64,000 nucleotides of DNA, from positions 57,066-121,065 of the IMG/VR virus record IMGVR_UViG_3300024265_000033; one strand, given 5' to 3'. The position numbers and the translations under genes were made by a program. Below are positions 29,561-63,934 of this stretch, piece by piece. The stretch comes from a virus. Position 1 is the stretch's first letter. The number at the start of each line of letters is the position of its first letter. The notes under the pieces are model-generated. The model did not search any database. It saw only the letters and a program-made list of their open reading frames with translations, and had not been told where the DNA came from.

Positions 29561-30164
29561 AGAAACTAAAAAAGAGGAGATACTCGAACTGGTAGAGTTC
29601 GAAACCAAGTATGAGACTACTCTAGATCAACTATTCCCGTTCAAAGCTCTAGTGGAATCTATGGAATATAAAAATCATAAATATGTCCAAGGCCCGGATG
29701 TGTTCTTCACGAAAGGTAATGAAACTAATATCTTCGCCAGATACCGGAAAGCCGAACACGATAAGTCTGGGAGAGCTGAGTTTACAGTCAAGGAAAAACT
29801 TCAGAAAAATAGCTCAGTTATTCGAACGGAGACTAATTGGCGGGTAGACAAAACCCCCTATCCCGAAATTGCTAAGGGTGCGGATATGATGGGCTTTGAG
29901 TACAATACTAGAATTTGGAAGGCGTGTCATATTTATGACCTTGACGACGCGACTTTAGTGTTCTATACTGTGAAAGACGAAACTAACAAACTGATGCATT
30001 TCATGGAGATTGAAGTGAGAGAAGATCTTAAAATTACAGAAGACCAAGGCTGGGAAATCATTCGTAAATACGAAGCCGTTTTGGCCCCTCTAGGCGTATC
30101 AGCTCAAAAGAGAAAAAGAAAATCTCTCTTTGAGATGTACAGGAAGGTAAAATCCAATGGCTAA
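29553..30164 (+). CDS. CYTH-like (triphosphate tunnel) protein
   Basis: 203 residues. The N-terminal signature ExExK is present as EFETK (15-19). Charged strand motifs follow (FARYRK, EFTVKEKLQ, TETNWRVD) and FMEIEVRE near residue 148, as in the beta-tunnel of CYTH enzymes that hydrolyse triphosphates or act as class IV adenylyl cyclases. The basic tail QKRKRKSLFEMYRK is extra. Assignment rests on motif pattern only; the activity is unknown. Confidence 0.6.
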   Translation: MAEETKKEEILELVEFETKYETTLDQLFPFKALVESMEYKNHKYVQGPDVFFTKGNETNIFARYRKAEHDKSGRAEFTVKEKLQKNSSVIRTETNWRVDKTPYPEIAKGADMMGFEYNTRIWKACHIYDLDDATLVFYTVKDETNKLMHFMEIEVREDLKITEDQGWEIIRKYEAVLAPLGVSAQKRKRKSLFEMYRKVKSNG

Positions 30165-30354
30165 GATACTGTTCATCCTATTGTTCCTTGTTGCATTAAT
30201 TGCGCTCATGCCTATGCTGACAGCTTGGGCTTGGTCCAATTCTGTAACCCCTGTATTCGGAATCAGAGAAATTACTTGGGTTGAAGCTTTCTTTTTCAAT
30301 ATGCTAGGCGCGTGCCTGTTCAAAAATACTAATGTGAACTGGAAAAAAGACTGA
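30157..30354 (+). CDS. small membrane protein
   Basis: 65 residues, overlapping both neighbours by a few bases. Residues about 3-27 are a strongly hydrophobic helix; a second hydrophobic patch (WVEAFFFNMLGACLF, about 41-55) may be a second one. Function unknown. Confidence 0.6.
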   Translation: MAKILFILLFLVALIALMPMLTAWAWSNSVTPVFGIREITWVEAFFFNMLGACLFKNTNVNWKKD

Positions 30355-30767
30355 TGGATCTTAAAAGAGAAAACTTTCCAATAGATTTCTCCTTCAAAGC
30401 GGAGGACATTCTCAGCAAATCTGCGGACGTCTCCCCTATTCAAAAGTTCCAAGATGGGATTCTAAAGGGTCTGAAAGAAACCAAGGCTGATCCCAAAGAG
30501 TTGATCCCTTTCATGAAAAATTCAGATATTCAAAAGCTTACTGACGCCACATCCAAGTGGCTTGTTGACGTCAAAGGCGTGGATGAAGAAACTGATGAGT
30601 ACGCAGCCACAATGGGTTCTCTGATTCAGTATTTGCCCTACTCTTTCGAAGATGTTTTGGATGAGGTGCCCGATTGGGTAGAAGACGACAAAGTATATCT
30701 GTTAAAAACTGGCGGTAATTCGAGCTGTGCTCCAAAGGGCTGCGGCGGATGTAGTAAGGGGTGTTAA
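30354..30767 (+). CDS. hypothetical protein with Cys/Gly-rich C-terminal tail
   Basis: 137 residues. A helical, acidic body (about 1-118) ends in GGNSSCAPKGCGGCSKGC, with four cysteines in the last 13 residues. Such a tail could bind metal or be a modification target. The body does not match a family I know. It is coupled to the next gene, whose ATG follows the stop directly. Confidence 0.55.
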   Translation: MDLKRENFPIDFSFKAEDILSKSADVSPIQKFQDGILKGLKETKADPKELIPFMKNSDIQKLTDATSKWLVDVKGVDEETDEYAATMGSLIQYLPYSFEDVLDEVPDWVEDDKVYLLKTGGNSSCAPKGCGGCSKGC

Positions 30768-31097
30768 ATGACCGTAGATGATGCAAGAAATAGTTTTTTC
30801 GAATTCGAAACAAAGTACGCAATTGTTACTTCGGCCAAACAAGCTCTAGAACTAATAAGTCTTTTATCTAAAGTAGGACATCCCCGAGCAGTTCTCTCCG
30901 TGAAGGAAGAGGAACTGGAGAGTATTGCAGAAGAACTCGAAGCTCAAGGTTTTGAAACTTTTGAGATAGATGTCGAGGATCTTGCTGAGACAGAGGGCGT
31001 GATGCTGGATTACTCAAAAGGAGTAGCCCCTTTGGCAGTTGAATGGGTAGATTCACAAGAGGAGATGGGCGGCAATGAAGACAACCTCCTCAATTAA
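30768..31097 (+). CDS. hypothetical acidic protein
   Basis: 109 residues, ATG immediately after the previous stop. It begins with FFEFETKYAIVTS, echoing the EFETKY of the CYTH-like protein, but the rest is acidic helices (EEELESIAEELEAQGFETFEID) without further CYTH motifs. Its end overlaps thyX by 23 bases. Function unknown. Confidence 0.5.
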   Translation: MTVDDARNSFFEFETKYAIVTSAKQALELISLLSKVGHPRAVLSVKEEELESIAEELEAQGFETFEIDVEDLAETEGVMLDYSKGVAPLAVEWVDSQEEMGGNEDNLLN

Positions 31098-31743
31098 AGC
31101 AGACTATATCGACCATATGGGCACCGATATGAGTGTGGTCAACGCCGCTAGGGTTTCTTTCGGAGAATCCGTCCATGTTGTTTCCGAGAAAGATGAGAAG
31201 CTCTTAAATTATCTAGCCAAACACGAACACATGAGTCCTTTTGAGCATTGTCAGCTTACGGTATTGGTAGAGTGTCCTTTGTTTATTAGATCCCAGATTC
31301 ACAGACATCGCACTTTTGCCTACAACGAGATCTCTCGCAGGTACACGGATTCGGGTATAGAGTTTTTTAGTCCTGATACATTCCGATGCCAATCTTTGAA
31401 TAACAAACAAGGTAGTTACGGAGCCCTGCCAGACGAGACTAACGAATACCTACAAGCTGAGGGAGAGCATATCATGCAAGAATGTTTGATATTCTATAAC
31501 AAATTGTTGGAGACGGGTGTAGGCAAGGAACAGGCTCGCGGATATCTGCCACAGAACCTCATGACCAAATTCTACATGACCGGAAACCTGCGCAACTGGA
31601 TTCATTTTCTTCGATTGAGACTCGATAACCACGCTCAGAAAGAATCGCAAGTTGTGGCTCAGCAAATCAAAAATATCATTTCAGAACGATTTCCCGCTTC
31701 TTCGGAAGCTTTATTTAAGTACGCCATTAAGGAGGCAAAATGA
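31075..31743 (+). CDS. thyX: flavin-dependent thymidylate synthase
   Basis: 222 residues. The ThyX motif RHRx7S is present (R77-H78-R79 to S87), with SPFEHCQ (54-60) before it and a YLPQNLMTKFYMTGNLR segment after it. It converts dUMP to dTMP using FAD, methylene-tetrahydrofolate and NADPH. It acts downstream of the phage dUTPase and ribonucleotide reductase. Coupled to the ligase gene by a four-base overlap. Confidence 0.93.
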   Translation: MKTTSSIKADYIDHMGTDMSVVNAARVSFGESVHVVSEKDEKLLNYLAKHEHMSPFEHCQLTVLVECPLFIRSQIHRHRTFAYNEISRRYTDSGIEFFSPDTFRCQSLNNKQGSYGALPDETNEYLQAEGEHIMQECLIFYNKLLETGVGKEQARGYLPQNLMTKFYMTGNLRNWIHFLRLRLDNHAQKESQVVAQQIKNIISERFPASSEALFKYAIKEAK

Positions 31744-60754: not shown

Positions 60755-61168
60755 TTAATCCCCTGTCTTATCTGGCTTGAAATCAAAGTCGGCTTCGGCC
60801 TCTTCTTTGGCCTTAGCTTCCCGCTCTTTCTGGTTTTCTTCAATCATCTTATCCATCCAATCCACATCTGAATCATCAAGTGTGGAACTGATTTTTGCTT
60901 CAAATTCCTCCCGGAAATTCGAGTCCTTCTCTAGTAGTATAGCGTAATACTCGATTAATATATGCTCGTCCGTGTAGCCCTCCCATACCGGGTCCCAAAA
61001 CAATACTCCCCGTTCTTGGCAAATATTATATTTAGCAAATCGGACAAAATCAGACAAGTCAACATCCGACCTATTGGCAGGTTGTTGGGACATGCAATAT
61101 GCCAGATATTTAAGGTTGAAAAAGGGATCTCTTCCTTCCTTATTCTCCTTTTTCTGCTTCTTCTCCAT
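60755..61168 (-). CDS. tail assembly chaperone, downstream frame (T part)
   Basis: 137 residues if started at ATG 61168. It overlaps the upstream chaperone gene by 29 bases in a frame that would need a +1 (or -2) ribosome shift. Near the overlap is GCAGAAAAAGGAGAATAA: the AAA-G could let Lys-tRNA slip +1. Phage tail chaperones are usually made as such G/GT pairs. The protein is helical and acidic at the C-terminus. The weak ribosome site at the ATG favours a frameshift product. Confidence 0.6.
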   Translation of the reverse strand: MEKKQKKENKEGRDPFFNLKYLAYCMSQQPANRSDVDLSDFVRFAKYNICQERGVLFWDPVWEGYTDEHILIEYYAILLEKDSNFREEFEAKISSTLDDSDVDWMDKMIEENQKEREAKAKEEAEADFDFKPDKTGD

Positions 61169-61550
61169 CTTCTTCGTCTTTTCCCCAAACTGTTTCCATC
61201 CAGCTTTCTTGATACTTTTCTACCTCATCGTAGACTTTTTTGACCACATTGAAGTCCTCTAAATCATAGCCATAATCGGCTTCTCTCCACCAAGGGGGAG
61301 TCTCAGAGAGTGTGAATCTGAGGAAGGCGATCATATAATGGAGTTCTAGGACAGAAACGTCCAATGCAAGATCGAGGCCCCCATTTAGCTCAGCTCGCTT
61401 CTTATCGGCTAGGGCCTTTGTTTTTAGGTTTGGAATTTTGAATTTGAAGTCGCCCGAATAGGTTGTACGGGACACTTTTCCCTCTACTTCTACGCTAAAT
61501 TCGTACTCTCTAGAAGGCACGTCTTTTGCCAAGGTCTTTGAATTACTCAT
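61140..61550 (-). CDS. tail assembly chaperone, upstream frame (G part)
   Basis: 136 residues, ATG 61550 behind GAGGAG. Beta-rich N-terminus (YEFSVEVEGKVSRTTYSGDFKF), then helices (LHYMIAFLRFTL) and an acidic end (GKDEEDGEEAEKGE). Position between tube and tape measure and overlap with the next frame identify the tail chaperone G. It is the first minus-strand gene after the plus-strand cassette; a TGTTATAAT promoter lies at 61628-61636. Confidence 0.65.
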   Translation of the reverse strand: MSNSKTLAKDVPSREYEFSVEVEGKVSRTTYSGDFKFKIPNLKTKALADKKRAELNGGLDLALDVSVLELHYMIAFLRFTLSETPPWWREADYGYDLEDFNVVKKVYDEVEKYQESWMETVWGKDEEDGEEAEKGE

Positions 61551-61597: not shown

Positions 61598-61626
61598 TTG
61601 ACTAATTCAGCCCCTTACGATAATAT
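61598..61626 (+). promoter_or_regulatory. promoter TTGACT-N17-TAATAT for the plus-strand cassette
   Basis: TTGACT (61598-61603), 17 bases, TAATAT (61621-61626). It faces right, toward the cytochrome c cassette, within the 131-base divergent gap. Confidence 0.55.
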
Positions 61627-61627
61627 A

Positions 61628-61636
61628 ATTATAACA
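61628..61636 (-). promoter_or_regulatory. extended -10 promoter TGTTATAAT for the tail operon
   Basis: Minus strand TGT-TATAAT (61628-61636), overlapping back to back with the rightward promoter. The start point would be about 70 bases before the chaperone ATG. Restarts tail transcription after the cassette. Confidence 0.5.
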
Positions 61637-61641
61637 TGTAG

Positions 61642-61669
61642 GAGGGTTTGAGTTGATCGACCCTCAACT
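61642..61669 (+). promoter_or_regulatory. two alternative leader hairpins
   Basis: GAGGGT (61642-61647) can pair with ACCCTC (61660-61665), and AGTTGA (61651-61656) with TCAACT (61664-61669). The two stems share bases and exclude one another. They lie in the leader just before the TTGGAGG ribosome site of the first cassette gene. Confidence 0.35.
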
Positions 61670-61681
61670 TTTGGAGGTAAT

Positions 61682-62068
61682 ATGGACACGTTATTGGCGG
61701 ACCCTATGTTTGCCGCTTTTTGTTATTTTTCGGTCGGAATCCTACTTGGGTACTTTTTTAGGGCTGTCAAAGGGCCTAATTATACCGAGGTAGCCATCAC
61801 TCCTCGGGAGATCAATTTGGAGCGTTTACACGCTATCAAAATCATTCCCAAAGCTGTCGCAGCTTGGGACGGGATAATCAACACTGACATGACCCGGCCA
61901 ATCAATGAGTTTTCTAGTCTTGGCTTGAACATTGATTCTAAATCCTACGCCGCGCTCAGAAGGCAGTTTTCTACAGAAGGCTATCCTTTGGAGTTTTTTC
62001 AGTGTTTCGAAAAGGCAATGGATTTGGGATTGGTCAAATATAGACATCGTCCGCTGAAGAGGGTCTAA
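61682..62068 (+). CDS. membrane-anchored hypothetical protein
   Basis: 128 residues, ATG 61682 behind TTGGAGG. A membrane helix (about 9-28, MFAAFCYFSVGILLGYFF) is followed by a cytoplasmic helical domain. First gene of the plus-strand cassette; the GNAT gene starts at its stop. Function unknown. Confidence 0.65.
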   Translation: MDTLLADPMFAAFCYFSVGILLGYFFRAVKGPNYTEVAITPREINLERLHAIKIIPKAVAAWDGIINTDMTRPINEFSSLGLNIDSKSYAALRRQFSTEGYPLEFFQCFEKAMDLGLVKYRHRPLKRV

Positions 62069-62532
62069 TGAGCGATAAGCTGAAGTTGATAAGAATACAC
62101 CCTGATGATGGAGATCTCTTTCTTCATGTGTACGACTTCGTAGTCGAGCATCACTTTACCCCTAAGCACTTGATTCCAGAAGAAGATTTATTGAAAGAGC
62201 CCTCTATTGTTACTTATTTTGTTCGAGACGAAGAGGGGGAGGGAATTATAGCCACAGCTTCCATGAAGAAATGGTCGCCGACTTTGGTAGAAATGCAGCG
62301 TACAATCGTACACGAAGCTTATAGAGGTTGTGGCTTGGGCAAAAAACTCGCTGTGGCTATGGAAGAAAAAGCCAAAGAAGAAGGGTTCAAGAAGATTTGG
62401 TCTTTTACCTACACCACTAATTTTCCTATGATTTTCATGAGACTGAAGTTGGGCTATGTAGTTGAGGGATTGTTAAGAAATTCTGATGCTCCGGGCATCG
62501 ATGAATATGTACTGGGCAAGGAGATAAAATGA
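62068..62532 (+). CDS. GNAT-family N-acetyltransferase
   Basis: 154 residues. Motif A is RGCGLGKKL (86-94), the acetyl-CoA pyrophosphate loop; flanking elements are IIATASMKKW (60-69) and FTYTTNFPMIFMRLKLGYV (about 109-127; motif B region). It transfers an acetyl group to an amine of unknown target. Overlaps both neighbours, so it is an integral part of the cassette. Confidence 0.85.
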   Translation: MSDKLKLIRIHPDDGDLFLHVYDFVVEHHFTPKHLIPEEDLLKEPSIVTYFVRDEEGEGIIATASMKKWSPTLVEMQRTIVHEAYRGCGLGKKLAVAMEEKAKEEGFKKIWSFTYTTNFPMIFMRLKLGYVVEGLLRNSDAPGIDEYVLGKEIK

Positions 62533-62780
62533 CGAAATTCAATGAACTTTTAGAACTGAAGAAAGAAAAGCACGAAGAACTAGGAGAGGTATTTGTTCTC
62601 TATTCCGAAGAAGATTCAGAGGGACGCGGTGCCTTTTTTGTAGAAGAAAAAACTTATGAGCACGAAACAAAGTCTGGAAAAAGAGTCAACAAAAAATACG
62701 ACTCTGCCGTAGCTATTCGTATCTCAAAAAAGACTGCCAAAAGACTGGCTAATCAAATTTTGAAGGAACTGGAAAAGTGA
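62529..62780 (+). CDS. hypothetical protein
   Basis: 83 residues, highly charged: a helical start (FNELLELKKEKHEEL), a beta middle (EVFVLYSEED, GRGAFFVEEKTYE) and a basic helix at the end (SKKTAKRLANQILKELEK). Overlaps the GNAT gene and, by GTGA, the cytochrome gene. Function unknown. Confidence 0.55.
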   Translation: MTKFNELLELKKEKHEELGEVFVLYSEEDSEGRGAFFVEEKTYEHETKSGKRVNKKYDSAVAIRISKKTAKRLANQILKELEK

Positions 62781-63124
62781 GAGAGTTCTTACCTCTGCTT
62801 TTTGTATCGGCAGTTATTGGTTTTCTTACATTCCAAGAAGTTGTCCTATACGAGTCCACACACTTCGGAGTATCCGAGTCTGCGCCCGCGCCTACATATA
62901 TCAAAGATATCCGACCTCTTTTCAAACGGAGTTGTCTGCCATGCCATGGTCCCGGCACAGGTCGAAATTGGCTCGATTATAATACCGCCTATAAGAAACG
63001 AAAATACATTAAATTCAGAGTCTTGGCTCGAAAAGACATGCCGCCCCTCTATTGGCAAAAACAGCTTTCTGACGAAGAACGTGAATTGATTGGTAAGTGG
63101 GTCGATGAAGGAGCAAAAGAATGA
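62777..63124 (+). CDS. membrane-anchored c-type cytochrome
   Basis: 115 residues from GTG 62777 (GTGA overlap). An N-terminal hydrophobic segment (about 4-23) exports or anchors it. The haem site is CLPCH (C53, C56, H57), with DMPP (M88) as probable sixth ligand. The flanking pattern IRPLFKRSCLPCHGPG, RVLARKDMPP and ERELIGKWVDEGA is that of class I monohaem cytochromes related to the planctomycete-type domain. The haem would be attached in the periplasm by host Ccm proteins. Cytochrome c genes are very unusual in phages. It may divert electrons or shield respiration during infection. Confidence 0.8.
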   Translation: MREFLPLLFVSAVIGFLTFQEVVLYESTHFGVSESAPAPTYIKDIRPLFKRSCLPCHGPGTGRNWLDYNTAYKKRKYIKFRVLARKDMPPLYWQKQLSDEERELIGKWVDEGAKE

Positions 63125-63357
63125 CACGGCTAATATTTGATCGCTGGGGATTCGGGCTTAATCTGTGGATTTGGAAAAAAGTTACGGGAGAAAATCTACC
63201 TTATCATTATGAAGTTCCTTTTTTCTTTATGATTAAATTCAAGTCTTGGGTGCCTTTTTCATTTGGAGTTGTTAAAAAGATACAGGGCAAAAAAGCAGAA
63301 TATATATTTCAATTATTGCATTACCGGATATTTCAAAAGAAATGCTACACAATATAG
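63121..63357 (+). CDS. hypothetical protein
   Basis: 78 residues overlapping the cytochrome gene by four bases. Aromatic- and Lys-rich (FGLNLWIWKKVTG, VPFFFMIKFKSWVPFSFGVV), with a possible membrane-binding middle and a basic end. Last gene of the cassette. No family recognised. Confidence 0.5.
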   Translation: MTRLIFDRWGFGLNLWIWKKVTGENLPYHYEVPFFFMIKFKSWVPFSFGVVKKIQGKKAEYIFQLLHYRIFQKKCYTI

Positions 63358-63365
63358 ATTAAAAT

Positions 63366-63399
63366 GGCCCCGCTAATTCAGACACGAAATAGCGAGGCC
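63366..63399. repeat. inverted repeat, 10-bp arms with one mismatch
   Basis: GGCCCCGCTA (63366-63375) pairs with TAGCGAGGCC (63390-63399) across 14 bases. On the minus strand it is followed by ATTTTAAT. It could end rightward transcripts weakly or a leftward short RNA. Confidence 0.5.
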
Positions 63400-63412
63400 G
63401 GAGGGAGGAGGT

Positions 63413-63455
63413 AAACGCCATGAAGAGCGTTTGCAAGCCCGAAGGCTCTCCTTAA
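63413..63455 (+). other. micro-ORF inside two hairpins, with strong ribosome site
   Basis: An 11-codon frame (63420-63455, MKSVCKPEGSP) follows a GGGAGGAGG site. Its ATG lies in the loop of AAACGC/GCGTTT (63413-63432). A second hairpin AGCC/GGCT (63436-63447) follows. Whether it is translated is unknown. Confidence 0.35.
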
Positions 63456-63470
63456 TTATACCCTAAAACG

Positions 63471-63498
63471 AAAAAAGGGAACCCGAAGGCTCCCTTTT
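63471..63498 (-). terminator. intrinsic terminator after the tail tube gene
   Basis: Minus strand GGGAGCC-TTCG-GGTTCCC (with a UUCG tetraloop) followed by six T. On the plus strand the stem keeps one mismatch and ends TTTT, so it can act both ways. It ends the tube transcript and the plus cassette. Confidence 0.8.
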
Positions 63499-63526: not shown

Positions 63527-63934
63527 TTATAGTCCGCGACCTTGACGACCTCGGAAGTTCCAAGTTCCCTGCCAAACGCCTCTAGCGTCTACAGAGCCTG
63601 TTCCACCTTCGAATTTAACGCCGCTCATTTCATATTCTACTCGACCGTCGATTCGGTTGAAGACCTCAAAAGTGAGTTCTCCTTGAGTGAGCAATTCGTT
63701 AATGTCCGCTGGATCTAGTCCAAATTCAGAAGCGGCATTGCCGTCGATCTTGAACAAATTGACTGAAAAACTTACAACGTGAGCAGTTTCGGCATGTTCC
63801 GCAACTCGTAAATCATCGAGAACATCGATGGGAGTTAACGTATTTTCTTGTGTAATATTCACTCCGGAAGCGAAGGCGACTTTTACCCCATTCAGCTTGA
63901 CGGATGCTTTTGATCCCGATAATACTTGACTCAT
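63527..63934 (-). CDS. tail tube protein
   Basis: 135 residues, ATG 63934 behind AAGGAG. Beta-rich with the tube pattern: ASVKLNGVKVAFASGVNITQ, HVVSFSVNLFKI, GELTFEVFNRIDGRVEYEMSGV. Forms the inner tube of the contractile tail through which DNA passes. The sheath gene would be expected further right, outside the window. Confidence 0.75.
   Translation of the reverse strand: MSQVLSGSKASVKLNGVKVAFASGVNITQENTLTPIDVLDDLRVAEHAETAHVVSFSVNLFKIDGNAASEFGLDPADINELLTQGELTFEVFNRIDGRVEYEMSGVKFEGGTGSVDARGVWQGTWNFRGRQGRGL

Follow-up and report, generated by a model that had tools for sequence, protein, structure and literature searches.

The DNA analyzed here (the window) is a stretch of 64,000 nucleotides corresponding to bases 57066-121065 of the 121 kb virus record IMGVR_UViG_3300024265_000033, whose phage is designated G000. 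The window contains genes for a T5 A1-like DNA transfer protein, DNA polymerase, primase-helicase, ribonucleotide reductase, SbcCD, ligase and GroEL, the last being a GroEL-type chaperonin of phage (25202-26911; phrog_5725, 7.5e-114). A tail sheath homologue is present elsewhere in the record, outside the window, which makes this uncultured virus a large contractile-tailed phage. tRNA genes were sought as a clue to the host and none was found, and the best named relatives were mixed (Ochrobactrum, Myxococcus, and Exiguobacterium/Bacillus phages), so that no host was assigned. Within the head gene module of this phage lies an S8 subtilase gene with intact catalytic residues (L003:10389-12124, positions 29889-31624 of the record), which overlaps the gene of a ClpP-like peptidase with an export-type N-terminus.

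Gene content and signals of the cassette

Between the tail chaperone genes and the tail tube gene, five overlapping genes are located on the plus strand (Table 1). A preliminary description made from the sequence alone had proposed this arrangement, and both the open reading frames and their overlaps (1, 4, 4 and 4 nt, in gene order) were confirmed, as was the GNAT acetyltransferase that it had recognized among them. None of the cassette genes matched defence families, and no other respiratory gene is present beside 62777-63124, the predicted cytochrome gene. With regard to the right flank, the homologue of the tail tube gene in a relative (L015) adjoins a tail sheath homologue.

Table 1. Features of the cassette and its flanks, in window positions
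Feature	Position	Strand	Characteristics
Second tail-chaperone-position gene	60755-61168	-	Overlaps first chaperone gene; position and synteny in relatives
Tail assembly chaperone (left flank)	61140-61550	-	phrog_1038, 3.8e-6; syntenic in relatives
Promoter-like site	61598-61626	+	TTGACT-17-TAATAT, 9/12 match; upstream of cassette
Cassette gene 1	61682-62068	+	128 aa; N-terminal membrane helix; no known family; GGAGG just before ATG
Cassette gene 2, GNAT N-acetyltransferase	62068-62532	+	154 aa; PF00583, 3.1e-13; phrog_1249 acetyltransferase, 7.4e-9
Cassette gene 3	62529-62780	+	83 aa; no assigned function; a relative has a 28% identical homologue (L010:13856-14110) in this hotspot
Cassette gene 4, predicted exported, N-terminally anchored monohaem c-type cytochrome	62777-63124	+	115 aa; GTG start
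Cassette gene 5	63121-63357	+	78 aa; no family match
Intrinsic-terminator-like hairpin	63473-63498	-	Called for the minus strand, end of the tail-tube transcript
Tail tube protein (right flank)	63527-63934	-	Weak tail-tube/structural match (phrog_985, 8.9e-4) and weak Phage_tube_2; 11 relatives

The cassette had also been credited with a promoter and a terminator of its own. A promoter-like site is found upstream of it, the excess of such sites in that region being modest (10 vs. 5.5 ± 1.9 in shuffles), and TTGA..TAxxxT sites precede the cargo in the corresponding gaps of six out of ten relatives (L243, L244, L245, L246, L247, and L248). The proposed dedicated terminator is doubtful, as the hairpin was called for the minus strand; read in the plus direction it offers a run of only four T, inside the stem, and at best the hairpin could serve both directions. 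Base composition, expected to differ in a moron, did not set the cassette apart (GC 41.0% vs. 43.2% for the window). The view of a moron-like accessory cassette holds on the grounds of synteny, since the genes are inserted on the opposite strand between two genes that are adjacent in outgroups.

Cytochrome c features of the fourth gene product

The initial reading of the 62777-63124 product as a monohaem cytochrome c relied on an N-terminal export/anchor helix, a CxxCH motif at residues 53-57, and a distal Met88; all of these were seen again and are kept in six homologues. In composition-preserving shuffles, CxxCH arises in 0.04% of cases. The profile search that had been suggested as a check did retrieve a cytochrome c family, Cytochrome_CBB3 (PF13442; E = 5.7e-5, residues 44-109), which is matched by four of the six phage members; at 23.8 bits the product fell short of the curated Pfam cut-off of 27, and membership in PF13442 was rejected. 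No PHROG or NCBIfam family matched it. A profile built from the six members, compared with solved structures, matched the haem domain of hydrazine synthase alpha (5.5e-6) and PccH (1.4e-5), the best monohaem match by sequence profile, while an hhalign comparison with the cytochrome domain of an acidobacterial protein gave a probability of 99.0 over the whole domain.

The full-length product was modelled by AlphaFold2 with a pLDDT of 82.5 and a membrane helix at residues 5-29, and the haem domain alone as an all-helical fold with a pLDDT of 92.1 and a pTM of 0.82. As in class I cytochromes, helices are modelled ahead of CxxCH and at the C-terminal end. In Foldseek searches the top PDB match of the full protein was again PccH, with weak E-values (0.59 and 1.4 in the full-protein and domain searches), and the haem domain retrieved cytochromes at ranks 1, 2, 3, and 8, also with weak E-values, so that the likeness of the models to solved cytochromes is suggestive. 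In a library of predicted viral structures (BFVD), the sole strong fold match to the haem-domain model was A0A481YUA7 (probability 1.00, TM 0.75, 29% identity), a nameless 188 aa protein of Marseillevirus LCMAC102, a giant-virus bin.

Five further homologues of 91-112 aa, 31-37% identical to the window cytochrome, were found on virus contigs from metagenomes (G001, IMGVR_UViG_3300021178_000001; G002, 3300033553_000270; G005, 3300032893_000067; G016, 3300027911_000001; G036, 3300049846_000940). Residues C53, C56, H57, Y68, A71, M88, P89, R102, W108, G112, and K114 are invariant in all six proteins, each of which has an MP motif 28-33 residues after the His of CxxCH and a W-x3-G-x-K ending; the constancy of the distal Met and of its spacing fits redox ligation. 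A hydrophobic N-terminus is likewise universal (anchor-like in four, lipoprotein-like in G002, and cleavable-signal-like in G036). The six sequences were too diverged for dN/dS.

The rarity of cytochrome c genes in phages, stated beforehand as general knowledge, agrees with the outcome of the searches: 50,697 phage records queried with three members gave no match, and the homologues amount to the five contigs above. A scan of viral contigs with a single sequence found no homologue, an alignment query added one cytochrome and whole-contig searches two, while 50 more virus contigs (tube relatives and S8 contigs mixed) contained none. A degenerate CxxCH...MP DNA pattern hit at least 80 loci, with one real and already known cytochrome among the matches listed; most of these matches (L123-L202) have a length of 103 bases, lie out of frame, and probably mark a different stretch of phage DNA that is conserved and widespread.

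Like class I and cbb3-type small c cytochromes and Geobacter PccH (4rlr), the phage proteins have CxxCH within the first helix of the haem domain, a distal Met in an MPP-like loop, and a C-terminal helix, but their domain has only about 75-80 residues, scores below the PF13442 cut-off, and is phage-encoded. That the product is instead a small membrane protein with a chance or zinc-binding CxxCH is very improbable: the Pfam score under the cut-off and the occurrence of zinc-ribbon-like CxxCH proteins in the same cassettes (L017:9185-9385) would fit such a protein, but there is a single CxxCH with no second Cys pair, the Met is conserved, cytochrome profiles and bacterial haem domains match along the whole length, and every member has an export-type N-terminus. 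Taking together the profile matches, the six conserved phage homologues, the comparison with the bacterial domain profile, and the confident helical model, the initial assignment is upheld and the gene very probably encodes a real c-type cytochrome, for which we infer a cytochrome fold with His/Met ligation; judging by its N-terminus, the protein is quite likely exported.

Genomic settings and bacterial relatives

Tube relatives were divided into a close clade (tube identity ≥ 52%) and distant ones (27-42%). In the distant relatives (L018, L249, and L251-L259) the tube gene stands beside the chaperone gene on one strand, the normal order according to the preliminary description, whereas in all 11 close-clade records with a complete interval, the window included, 1.9-5.8 kb of cargo, mostly on the opposite strand, separate the two. 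This cargo comprises exported proteases (S8, trypsin-like, and ClpP-like), calcineurin phosphoesterases, 2OG-Fe(II) oxygenases, and HNH and other nucleases. A search for the same cassette in related phages had been suggested as a check; the cytochrome does occur in the same gap of two of them (G001 and G002) and the remaining cargo varies. With the window, the cytochrome is thus present in 3 of the 11 complete gaps, always on the strand opposite to the tail genes, and it is dispensable. In G005, G016, and G036 it belongs to other operons, among DNA metabolism genes, which together with the varied gap cargo identifies it as mobile cargo of an accessory hotspot and not as a part of the tail.

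Hypervariable opposite-strand cargo was seen in the gap of L012, L015, L017, and L242-L248, and partly in L010; within it, several relatives share one small, conserved protein (MYRLRDLKxGxYQxH...; L012:7916-8143, L015:12882-13112, L010:16064-16327). After the nearest named tail sheath, that of Myxococcus phage Mx1 (L260, 39-50 kb), come a single hypothetical gene and a stretch of tRNAs and small genes, a comparably placed cargo region.

These genomic settings also bear on whether a host fragment was misjoined to the virus contig, which we regard as extremely improbable. The closest deeper relatives of the gene are bacterial domains, as would be expected of such a fragment, but tail genes flank it on both sides in one contig, two independent contigs have this gene in the corresponding gap, and three more virus contigs carry it, two of them with terminase genes and G016 with a T5 A1-like DNA transfer protein. 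An assembly chimera was ruled out by synteny.

In the phylogenetic tree, which was computed from 22 short rows with a narrow bacterial sample, the phage cytochromes form one group (support 84/77; 82% of bootstrap trees), and a single origin is likely on this sequence-based evidence. Next to this group are the N-terminal haem domains of secreted acidobacterial proteins of about 500 aa with a copper type II monooxygenase C-terminal domain (Cu2_monoox_C), which are 36-37% identical to the phage proteins and have in common with them the motifs T-Y-T-K-D..PIF..C..CH, K-x-MPP, and W-x3-GAKE; in contrast to them, the phage proteins are stand-alone, have an N-terminal anchor, and do not contain the insert after MPP. 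Domains of Planctomycetota and others sit further out. Those in multidomain proteins of Planctomycetota, Bryobacterales, and Arenibacter, which we take to be of PSCyt1 type, are 27-32% identical to the phage cytochrome, and differ from it in being more distant in the tree and fused to large proteins.

Candidate roles in the host envelope

Membrane-tethered His/Met haem proteins (class I cytochromes) carry electrons. The best explanation of the locus, to which we would give an even chance, is an exported, membrane-tethered c cytochrome that carries electrons in the envelope and travels as hotspot cargo. The N-terminal hydrophobic helix would take the protein through the inner membrane and probably anchor it there, the cytochrome c maturation (Ccm) machinery of the host would attach one haem to Cys53/Cys56, and His57 and Met88 would serve as axial ligands. 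The cytochrome could then transfer electrons between redox partners of the host in the envelope, the likeliest destination being a terminal oxidase or some other acceptor in the periplasm, and by upholding electron flow may maintain respiration, membrane potential, and ATP during phage replication, the partner and the benefit being guesses on our part. That the protein carries electrons in support of the host's respiration or redox balance has, taken for itself, an even or slightly lower probability.

The haem-bearing exported protein might otherwise act as a sensor, as a peroxide or NO scavenger, or as a redox partner of an exported phage protein such as the S8 subtilase, and not as a respiratory carrier, which we consider unlikely. 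An S8 subtilase is also encoded by all six cytochrome phages; S8 and cytochrome genes stand in one cassette in G001 and G002 and overlap by 4 nt in the otherwise unrelated contig G005 (AAGTGA; L026:5258-6324), and all five aligned S8 proteases retain the catalytic Asp, His, and Ser. This link is suggestive but biased, as G016 and G036 were discovered via their S8 gene, and in the close clade S8 without cytochrome is common (4/9; Fisher p ~ 0.16, not significant). In G000 the S8 gene is far from the cytochrome, in the head module; moreover, no cytochrome was adjacent to the S8 gene at 80 fetched phage S8 loci, and when S8-bearing contigs were searched whole, a cytochrome elsewhere was detected only in G016 and G036. 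A strict S8-cytochrome pair was rejected as unproven.

Still less probable is a role in altering the host envelope or in shutting out rival phages, as part of host takeover or superinfection exclusion, in which the haem domain would serve for binding and not for electron transfer. The recurrence of exported proteins in the hotspot (S8, trypsin-like, and ClpP-like proteases) and the membrane helix of cassette gene 1 are in line with such a function, whereas the invariance of the distal Met and its spacing in 6/6 members and the lack of any defence-family match in the cassette speak against it. An extension of the electron-carrier reading, namely a recurring family of stand-alone exported c cytochromes that is passed among unrelated tailed phages and reroutes the flow of electrons in the envelope of the host, perhaps paired with an exported subtilase, is put forward here as a rather doubtful proposal.

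Phage genes acting on host electron flow have so far come mainly from cyanophages and phages of sulfur oxidizers. Cyanophages carry plastocyanin, ferredoxin, PTOX, and NDH (PMC10452541), soxC/soxD were found on virus contigs, with two soxD contigs both lacking the second haem motif and one of them the first (PMC8190135), and reads of cbb3 oxidase subunit I were recovered from viral fractions (PMC3474794); in a marine survey, phages carried denitrification genes and no cytochromes were seen in them (PMC8115048). The cyanophage and sox genes resemble the cytochrome in being phage-carried and touching host electron flow, and SoxD is a c-type cytochrome as well, but they belong to photosynthesis or sulfur oxidation. 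Searches of the open-access literature on phage-encoded cytochrome c turned up no stand-alone family. If the electron-carrier reading is true, the minimal exported monohaem cytochromes of six phages would add an electron carrier of the periplasm, dependent on the haem-attachment machinery of the host, to what phages provide, suggesting that phages with such a cytochrome adjust host electron flow while they multiply.
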